A stretch of 64,000 bases of DNA, taken from contig JAAZAV010000061.1 in assembly GCA_012514145.1 (NCBI GenBank), forward strand, positions 25,009 to 89,008, in the 5' to 3' direction. Position numbers and translations under genes: made by a program. The notes below the pieces were generated by a model, which saw only the letters and a list, made by a program, of their open reading frames with translations, searched no databases and had not been told where the DNA came from. Below are positions 13,968 through 16,833 of the stretch, piece after piece. This stretch comes from Clostridiales bacterium (GTDB taxonomy: Bacteria > Bacillota > Clostridia > Oscillospirales > CAG-272). The first letter of the stretch is position 1. Each line of letters starts with the position of its first letter.

Positions 13968-14696
13968 CTATTCTTCGTCAGTGTCGTTCTTATCGGTTTT
14001 TCCGGCTTTCTCAAGCTCGGAAACCTGTCTTTCAAGCCGCTCTATCTGGACGCGCAGGCGGCAGAGTTCCTGGGATACCGGGTCGGGGATATGAACATGA
14101 TCCAGTTCTTCGTTGAGCACCTTCTGATTATGGCGCCTTACCACGCGGGCGGGAATTCCCACCGCCGTGCTGTCCGGAGGAATCTCTTCAAGAACCACGG
14201 CGTTGGCGGCAATCTTGCTGTTATCGCCGATTCTGAAGGGACCGAGAATCTTGGCGCCCGAGCCAACCATGACATTATTGCCGAGTGTAGGATGCCGCTT
14301 GCCTACATCCTTGCCGGTACCTCCGAGAGTGACGCCCTGATAAAGAGTGCAGTTGTCGCCTATTTCAGTGGTCTCACCTATGACAACGCCGCTGCCGTGG
14401 TCGATAAAAAGCCCCCGCCCGATGGTTGCGCCCGGGTGTATCTCGACTCCGGTCAGAAAACGGGCTGCCTGACTGATAAAACGGGCGGGGAAGTGCATTC
14501 CTCGCTTGTACAGGGCATGAGAAATACGGTGCGCCATAATCGCGTGCAGACCTGAATATAGCAGCAGCACCTCAAGCGACGAGGTGGCAGCAGGGTCGCG
14601 TTCCTTGATGGCGGCGATATCCTCCTTAAGTTCCTCATAGGCGGCGGCACAGGCGAGCAGCAGACGATCTGTGGGGGTATATTCTTTTTTGTTCAT
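13968..14696 (-). CDS. cysE: Serine O-acetyltransferase
   Basis: Left-handed beta-helix hexapeptides ([47 protein letters not shown]). Confidence 0.95.
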
Positions 14697-14740: not shown

Positions 14741-14769
14741 ATTATATAACGACTTGACCGGCTTGTCAA
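14741..14769 (-). promoter_or_regulatory. Perfect consensus sigma70 promoter for cysE
   Basis: On the minus strand: TTGACA (14769-14764), 17-nt spacer, TATAAT (14746-14741). Confidence 0.85.
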
Positions 14770-14845
14770 GGCGGTTAAGTTGTCTTTACACTTCATTCAC
14801 GGACTGCATGGAAATAATTTAACATTTTAATGATACAATTCTGCA

Positions 14846-15070
14846 GATATATGTGTACGAACTAATCTGTCAGAGCCTGCCGGAATATCCTCCGGCTTTG
14901 CTCAGGTATGATCGCCCGGTACCTGGGTTTTCTCTGCGGATGGATTTATATGCTTATAGAAGGCTTGTTGCCGGAGAGCCGTGCAGATGTGCAGTTGCAC
15001 GGCGGCCGTAAACTCCGGAACCGACAGGCTTTATCGTGTTGCGCACATTTATATTCAGGGTGCGCTTTTT
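14846..15070 (+). ncRNA. Candidate structured RNA / leader ending in an intrinsic terminator, upstream of the RNase J gene
   Basis: Long-range stem AGAGCCTG (14872-14879) with CAGGCTTT (15025-15032); internal stems GCCGGA/TCCGGC, CCGGAG/CTCCGG enclosing CCGTGC/GCACGG. Terminator-like GCGCAC/GTGCGC+TTTTT at 15041-15070. 5' end approximate. Confidence 0.5.
15041..15070 (+). terminator. Intrinsic terminator upstream of the RNase J gene
   Basis: GCGCAC-loop-GTGCGC followed by TTTTT. Confidence 0.65.
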
Positions 15071-15135
15071 AGGTTACACGCGGCAGATACGGCAGGTGTT
15101 TCGCCGCTGCCGCGTTTATACAATAAGGAGAATTT

Positions 15136-16833
15136 ATGGCAAAAAACAAAAATGGCGGCTCCAGGGCATCATCAAAAGGAAAGTTAAAAGTATGTATGCT
15201 CGGGGGTCTCAACGAAATAGGCAAGAATCTGGCGGTGCTGGAGTTCGGTGAGGACATAATCGTAATCGACTGCGGACTTGGCTTTCCGGATGACGACATG
15301 CTGGGTATCGACCTGGTTATACCCGATGTGAGCTATCTGGAGAAAAACAGCGACCGGGTTCGCGGCTTCTTCATCACCCATGGTCATGAGGATCATATCG
15401 GAGCGCTGCCTTATGTGCTGAAAGTCGTGCATGCCCCGATCTATGCCACACGCCTGACCTGCGGCATACTAAAGAACAAATTCGCCGAGCATCGTTACGA
15501 CACCGAGCCGGAGCTTCGGAGCGTAGAAGCCGGCGACATTATAAAAGCCGGCTGCATGTCGGTCGAGTTCATTCGGGTAAACCACTCGATAGCCGACGCC
15601 TGCTGTCTGGCGATACGCACACCGGTGGGTACAGTTATACATACCGGCGACTTCAAGCTTGACCTTACCCCCATAGACGGCGAGATGATGGATATTGCCC
15701 GCCTCGGTCAGATCGGCAATGAAGGCGTTGCCCTGCTGATGTGCGAGTCTACAAACTCCGAGCGCCCGGGTTATACTCCATCCGAGCGTGTCGTGGGACG
15801 CACACTTGACAATATTTTCATGATGAACGCCGACAAGCGGATTGTCATTGCCACCTTCTCGTCAAATGTGCACCGGGTGCAGCAGATAATCAACACCTCG
15901 GCGGTGCACGGCAGAAAGGTTGCGGTTACCGGCCGTTCTATGCTCAATGTCGTCCACGCGGCGGTTGAACTGGGATACATGAATGTCCCCTCCGGCGTGC
16001 TCATTGATATAAACGAAATTAAGCGCTATCCGCATGAGCAGATAACCGTTGTCACCACAGGTACCCAGGGTGAGCCCATGTCGGCACTCTACCGTATGGC
16101 GTTTTCGAACCACGACAAGGTTCAGCTCGGACCGCGCGACCTGGTGATACTCTCGTCATCGGCGATTCCCGGCAATGAGAAGCTTATCGGCAAAATAATA
16201 AACGAGCTGTATAAAAAAGGCGCGGCGGTAATACGCGACTCTGTGGTGGAGGTTCATGTGTCGGGTCACGCCTGCCAGGAAGAGCTGAAACTCATGATGG
16301 CGCTGACCAAGCCAAAGTATCTTATGCCTATCCACGGCGAGTATAAGCACATGGTGCATCTGAAAAATCTCGCCATGACCATGGGTATACCCGAGAACCA
16401 GATTTTCATCCCGGATATAGGCAAGGTGCTGGAACTGGACGAACGCGGAATGCGCGCCGGCGGCAGCATCCAGGCCGGGAATGTGCTGGTTGACGGTTAT
16501 TCTGTGGGCGATATCGGCAATATAGTGCTCCGCGACCGCCGGCACCTGGCGCAGGACGGGCTGATAGTCATAGTGGCGCAGGTGGATATCGAGAATCGTT
16601 CGGTTTACGCCGGTCCCGATATAGTCTCCCGCGGCTTCGTTTATGTGCGCGAGTCGGAGGAACTGATGGAACAGATGAGGATGATTGCCCGCGATGCGCT
16701 TGAAGATTCGCTGGAGAGCAATATTACCGACTGGACGCAGTTAAAATCACGTGTCAAGGATGATCTGGCTAAATTCCTGTATAATAAGACCAGACGAAAG
16801 CCGATGCTGCTGCCCGTCATAATGAATGTCTGA
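15136..16833 (+). CDS. rnj: Ribonuclease J
   Basis: Metallo-beta-lactamase/beta-CASP protein: ITHGHEDHIGALPYVL, TGDFKLD, TGTQGEPMSALYRMA, HVSGHACQEELKLM, PIHGEYKHM. Confidence 0.95.
   Translation: MAKNKNGGSRASSKGKLKVCMLGGLNEIGKNLAVLEFGEDIIVIDCGLGFPDDDMLGIDLVIPDVSYLEKNSDRVRGFFITHGHEDHIGALPYVLKVVHAPIYATRLTCGILKNKFAEHRYDTEPELRSVEAGDIIKAGCMSVEFIRVNHSIADACCLAIRTPVGTVIHTGDFKLDLTPIDGEMMDIARLGQIGNEGVALLMCESTNSERPGYTPSERVVGRTLDNIFMMNADKRIVIATFSSNVHRVQQIINTSAVHGRKVAVTGRSMLNVVHAAVELGYMNVPSGVLIDINEIKRYPHEQITVVTTGTQGEPMSALYRMAFSNHDKVQLGPRDLVILSSSAIPGNEKLIGKIINELYKKGAAVIRDSVVEVHVSGHACQEELKLMMALTKPKYLMPIHGEYKHMVHLKNLAMTMGIPENQIFIPDIGKVLELDERGMRAGGSIQAGNVLVDGYSVGDIGNIVLRDRRHLAQDGLIVIVAQVDIENRSVYAGPDIVSRGFVYVRESEELMEQMRMIARDALEDSLESNITDWTQLKSRVKDDLAKFLYNKTRRKPMLLPVIMNV

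Follow-up and report, generated by a model that had tools for sequence, protein, structure and literature searches.

In Gram-positive bacteria, RNase J is one of the central enzymes of mRNA decay. The closest described systems are RNases that act on their own messages. E. coli RNase E recognises a stem-loop within the 5' UTR of its own mRNA (PMC3997798), and in B. subtilis RNase Y autoregulates, controlling its own mRNA (PMC10303841). Passages of a 2013 review name rne, pnp and rnc as autoregulated RNases, with rnj not among them. How the level of RNase J is set appears undescribed in the literature searched.

The locus considered here lies in a 64,000-nucleotide stretch of DNA from a Clostridiales gut bacterium (the window), where an initial annotation had placed a possible structured RNA between cysE and rnj. 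The region is best read, from its sequence and that of its relatives, as a cis-regulatory leader of the RNase J mRNA that is conserved widely in Clostridia, a signal through which the cell most likely tunes the amount of RNase J. The leader element is conserved, keeps its position and its hairpin context, and is specific for rnj; we are highly confident that it is a real RNA feature.

The region between cysE and rnj

By the gene coordinates within the window, the gap between the two genes measures 439 nt, and the element stands directly upstream of rnj (Table 1). The rnj product scores 617 bits against TIGR00649 (cut-off 400) and 713.5 bits against NF047419, the latter under the cut-off of that model. 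On the other side of the gap, cysE has a perfect 12/12 sigma70-type promoter (TTGACA-17-TATAAT, 14741-14769, minus strand) that diverges from the predicted rnj promoter. In relatives (L043, L075, L090 and other members of the class), RNase J often carries an apparent N-terminal extension of variable length, ~50-170 aa.

Table 1. Features of the cysE-rnj region, in window coordinates
Feature	Position	Strand	Remark
cysE	13968-14696	-	5' neighbour of the gap
Predicted extended -10 promoter element TGATACAAT	14831-14839	+	TACAAT at 14834-14839; from sequence and the conserved motif offset; -35 weak
5'-proximal motif UGUACGAA	14854-14861	+	~+8 of the predicted transcript; 14 nt from TACAAT
AGAGCCTG	14872-14879	+	One arm of the enclosing helix claimed initially; sequence present
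GCCGGA/TCCGGC hairpin	14879-14896	+	Named initially; sequence present
Conserved hairpin GCUCAGGUAU-GAUCGCCCG-GUACCUGGGU	14900-14928	+	Loop subtype C; pair probabilities 0.82-0.99
Large hairpin CCGGAG[CCGTGC..GCACGG]CTCCGG	14971-15018	+	In the MFE structure; sequence not conserved
CAGGCTTT	15025-15032	+	Other arm of the claimed enclosing helix; sequence present
Terminator-like hairpin	15041-15070	+	GCGCAC (15041-15046) / GTGCGC (15060-15065), TTTTT (15066-15070); -9.3 kcal/mol
Shine-Dalgarno of rnj, AAGGAG	15125-15130	+	Read from the sequence
rnj	15136-16833	+	RNase J-family beta-CASP ribonuclease gene, proposed regulated gene; TIGR00649 and NF047419 matches

Positions 14846-15070 fold with a minimum free energy (MFE) of -85.3 kcal/mol (z -3.18), and 1 of 200 dinucleotide shuffles does as well. 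The region folds better than its shuffles, and a sequence check places every stem listed by the initial annotation where it had been drawn. However, the helix over ~150 nt that was said to join AGAGCCTG to CAGGCTTT and enclose the rest is absent from the MFE structure, with a pair probability of 0.0 at every pair. This ensemble value led to its rejection as a long-range helix, and the region folds as separate domains. Nor had the conserved core been named, neither its UGNNCG near +8 nor its hairpin with a GNNCG loop. The large hairpin has no detected homologue in relatives. The 5' arm of the terminator (15041-15050) can form ~7 bp (GAUGUGC/GCACAUU) with the loop of this hairpin, GAUGUGCAGU (14980-14990), a candidate antiterminator contact. 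Downstream of the terminator, and ahead of the Shine-Dalgarno sequence, lies another strong hairpin, GCGGCAG...CUGCCGC (15078-15115), with a possible influence on translation.

Could this be an RNA in its own right? The layout of promoter, strong structure and terminator would suit an independent ncRNA of ~225 nt with its own terminator, for instance a 6S-like RNA, and the initial annotation had entertained both. It had also recognised no known riboswitch consensus, and a scan with Rfam 15 (including 6S RNA, T-box, riboswitches and rne5) gave no match in the window at the gathering threshold. At a permissive threshold the region matched only TD-1, on the other strand (E 2.8). In 18 relatives there was no Rfam match, and in 20 further loci only sub-threshold, unrelated ones. 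The closing helix around a large central bubble expected of 6S RNA was not found, the enclosing helix having a pair probability of 0.0. In relatives, moreover, the core is kept between the promoter and rnj, including in the many leaders where no terminator was detected. With Rfam and position both against it, an independent RNA is the least probable of the readings weighed here, and the region is better treated as a leader of rnj.

Two conserved motifs in rnj leaders

At the DNA level the window leader has no homologue in a set of 59 genomes or in 395 genomes of its family, where the best hits are 19-45 nt matches of chance length, so the structure was approached through rnj orthologues. The comparison set consists of 241 rnj upstream regions from relatives: a family set from the same family as the window (155 loci, 141 once near-duplicates were removed), a class set from 60 other genomes of the class, and a phylum set from 40 genomes that belong to the phylum but not to the class. 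A strong promoter lies ~100-330 nt 5' of rnj in most members of the family, which gives them a long leader. Two recurring features were first seen in the closest orthologues, whose RNase J is ~70-72% identical, and then confirmed by k-mer counts.

The first feature is a short motif near the 5' end. Unbiased k-mer counts find TGTTCGT in 25 of the 141 family leaders (against 3.0) and TGTTCGGA in 10 of the 60 leaders from other families of the class (against 0.3). Once words from promoters, ribosome-binding sites and start codons are set aside, those enriched in the family include TGTTCGT, GACCGTT and CGCCCTCG, while TGTTCGGA, TGTACGGA, TGAACGGA and TGAGCGGA are prominent in the rest of the class. 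Together they lead to the common rule UGNNCG, which continues with GA in most Clostridia; in the family of the window, U or other bases come next. In other Clostridia it reads UGNNCGGA in 26/60 class leaders (counted as TGNNCGGA), where control 8-mers reach 1-2. Its position follows the promoter: in two independent sets, family and class, TG..CG peaks 13-16 nt past the last base of the -10 box, and permuted motifs give no comparable peak in either. The window has UGUACG at an offset of 14 nt, departing from the fuller consensus in ending CGAA rather than CGGA or CGU. From this sequence context we infer that the extended -10 at 14831-14839, an element that a promoter consensus scan did not list, drives transcription of the rnj leader. 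In Peptostreptococcus (L102, L103) the rnj leaders are very short and GUGUUCGUGA still follows directly past the promoter.

The second feature is a hairpin whose apical loop holds another GNNCG. Such a hairpin occurs in 62 of the 141 family leaders, against a shuffled mean of 9.4 and a maximum of 14, and other five-letter loop patterns counted in the same way reach 14-35; at the thresholds used, more than half of the family leaders are without it. In the class set TGNNCGG falls in hairpin loops in 6/60 leaders (against 0.2), and hairpins with a UGNNCGGA-type loop are found elsewhere in the class, for example at L268, L301 and L266. In the window, the second copy is UGAUCG (14909-14914), and its loop GAUCGCCCG, between promoter and rnj, is among the best-scoring of the 141 leaders. 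Among the loops there are three recurring subtypes, namely A (GKGCGUG), B (GGGNCGWWAUA) and C (GAWCGCCY). The strongest test counts how often loops B and C are flanked by a stem when no stem has been selected for. Of the 17 occurrences of motif C in leaders, 13 have a flanking stem, against 1 of 60 in 656 kb of control sequence; motif B has one in 12/12 leader occurrences and is absent from the control. At each of the five stem pairs counted, a set of 19 subtype C hairpins shows changes on both sides, but this count is illustrative, since the stems were picked as hairpins and the loop flanks trimmed for alignment; the stem-flanking comparison is thus the actual test. GUGCG, another GNNCG, often stands directly after the terminator U tract of family leaders (L170, L182 and L165, for example), in 15-19 of 141 against 1-2 on the reverse strand; the window is without it.

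The fixed spacing of the first motif to the -10 box would also be expected of a promoter-proximal DNA site, read by a transcription factor or pausing the polymerase, with the hairpins incidental. Against this, the second copy lies at a variable distance and occurs in hairpin loops far above chance, which makes a DNA-level site very unlikely.

Covariation, specificity for rnj and termination

Subtype A, which comes from one set of genera, could be aligned as a structure: 85% of cells are paired, 10 of 18 pairs are changed on both sides, and none of 500 shuffles reaches its covariation score. The initial annotation had named covariation across homologues as a check on its RNA; it was found, and the proposal withstands it. 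A covariance model of subtype A (R1), run against 395 genomes without knowledge of rnj positions, gave 16 matches with E <= 1.1e-5, all 16 directly upstream of rnj; nine of these are training sequences and seven are not, as judged by identical bit scores. L052 and L060, found earlier with R1, are likewise outside its training set. Five weaker matches (E 7e-4 to 9e-3) comprise one that precedes rnj (L162) and four that do not. That the significant matches all lie before rnj shows the existence of a conserved RNA in rnj leaders. For its part, the window has no significant match to R1 (2.5 bits, E 0.43 in 501 nt). It was placed in subtype C instead, its membership resting on the two core features. 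At 2.5 bits, an early proposal of homology between its large hairpin and the P2 hairpin of subtype A was given up as unproven.

A search for TATAAT-N12-17-TGNNCGGA covered the genome of the window and 20 others, picked mainly for having the motif in their rnj leader. The pattern has 59 sites in these 21 genomes, against 40 for a reversed control pattern. Most of the 30 loci inspected are inside genes, and ~11 stand before a gene outside any long conserved frame. The downstream gene is rnj at 8 of these 11 intergenic sites, so the element is essentially a feature of one gene. A regulon beyond rnj was rejected, the excess of sites being about the number of rnj sites. Outside the class, the element is found at the same place in a few leaders (L364, L366, L370).

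Terminator-like sites are found in 77 of the 141 family leaders on the plus strand against 37 on the minus strand, and that of the window, a G+C-rich hairpin and U tract before the gene, is its best placed terminator. In the class set the counts are 13 and 9 of 60, so little enrichment that attenuation cannot be the general mechanism. In the family of the window it is plausible, judging from the sequences. The initial suggestion of an attenuator controlling rnj is supported in part: a structured RNA lies from promoter to rnj and has a terminator-like end, and a leader or attenuator of rnj is its best reading. A passive role has also to be weighed, in which the element would protect the 5' end or stabilize the mRNA, setting the access of decay enzymes with no regulatory input. 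A motif at ~+8, at the very 5' end, is what such protection would use; but protection alone would have no need of terminators, nor of a covarying stem that presents a conserved loop sequence, and we consider it improbable beside a regulatory leader.

A proposed mechanism and its precedents

What would read the leader? RNase J forms oligomers. The 5' leader of the rnj mRNA would present UGNNCG ~8 nt from its end, then a hairpin with a second (U)GNNCG and, in the family of the window, a terminator. The GNNCG copies would form a putative protein-binding code; the protein reading it would signal RNase J activity, and the simplest candidate is oligomeric RNase J itself or its complex. Binding would lower rnj expression and so act as a brake on RNase J synthesis: in the family of the window it would favour the terminator, and in leaders without one it would expose the mRNA to decay or block translation. 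We infer both the identity of the binder and this direction of control. Autoregulation is the simplest reading because the element is specific for a single decay gene, and we regard it as an evenly balanced proposition that RNase J regulates rnj through its leader, partly via attenuation in the family of the window.

Could another factor be the real reader? Were the leader read by some other RNA-binding protein involved in decay, or by a small molecule acting on a riboswitch, rnj would be controlled with no feedback by RNase J. Conservation, loop motif and specificity for rnj do not name the binder, and the family terminators would suit any attenuator. However, an element specific to a single decay gene is most easily explained by autoregulation, Rfam riboswitch models have no match, and the conserved part, two short motifs amid variable structure, looks more like protein sites than a ligand pocket. 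Another reader is on balance rather unlikely, and autoregulation by RNase J remains the preferred reading. In its fullest form, put forward tentatively and a little short of probable, this reading gives the rnj mRNAs of many Clostridia, as well as of some neighbouring classes, a two-site code (UGNNCGGA at ~+8 and a copy in a hairpin loop) through which RNase J or its complex would autoregulate; in the family of the window, loop variants would have evolved and terminators been added.

The leader element is an RNA family missing from Rfam, and no prior description of an RNase J leader element was found in the literature searched, a scope that leaves most subscription journals outside. The rnj leader family and its motif appear new; cis-acting leaders of RNase mRNAs are as such already known. 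If true, the two-site code would be, in that literature, the first family of cis-regulatory RNAs described for a 5' exonuclease of bacteria. With the motif present upstream of rnj across many clostridial families, the question of level control becomes directly testable.

Among known systems, terminator-attenuation leaders such as the T-box and ribosomal protein leaders share the order of promoter, structured leader, intrinsic terminator and gene, although the rnj leader gave no above-threshold match to any family of T-boxes, riboswitches or ribosomal leaders. The E. coli rne leader is likewise the structured leader of a major RNase mRNA; there, a hairpin is recognised in cis, and similar negative feedback is proposed for the rnj leader. 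Unlike rne, rnj encodes a beta-CASP enzyme in a different phylum, and its leader combines UGNNCG near +8 with a GNNCG loop, has terminators in part of the family and matches no Rfam model. B. subtilis rny is the Gram-positive counterpart, an RNase mRNA that is self-adjusted, with cleavages in its 5' UTR (PMC10303841), and by analogy self-adjustment is proposed for rnj. Control of rny works through cleavages at many sites and persists when most of the 5' UTR is deleted (PMC10303841), whereas the rnj leader holds a hairpin loop and a motif that is both conserved and fixed in position.
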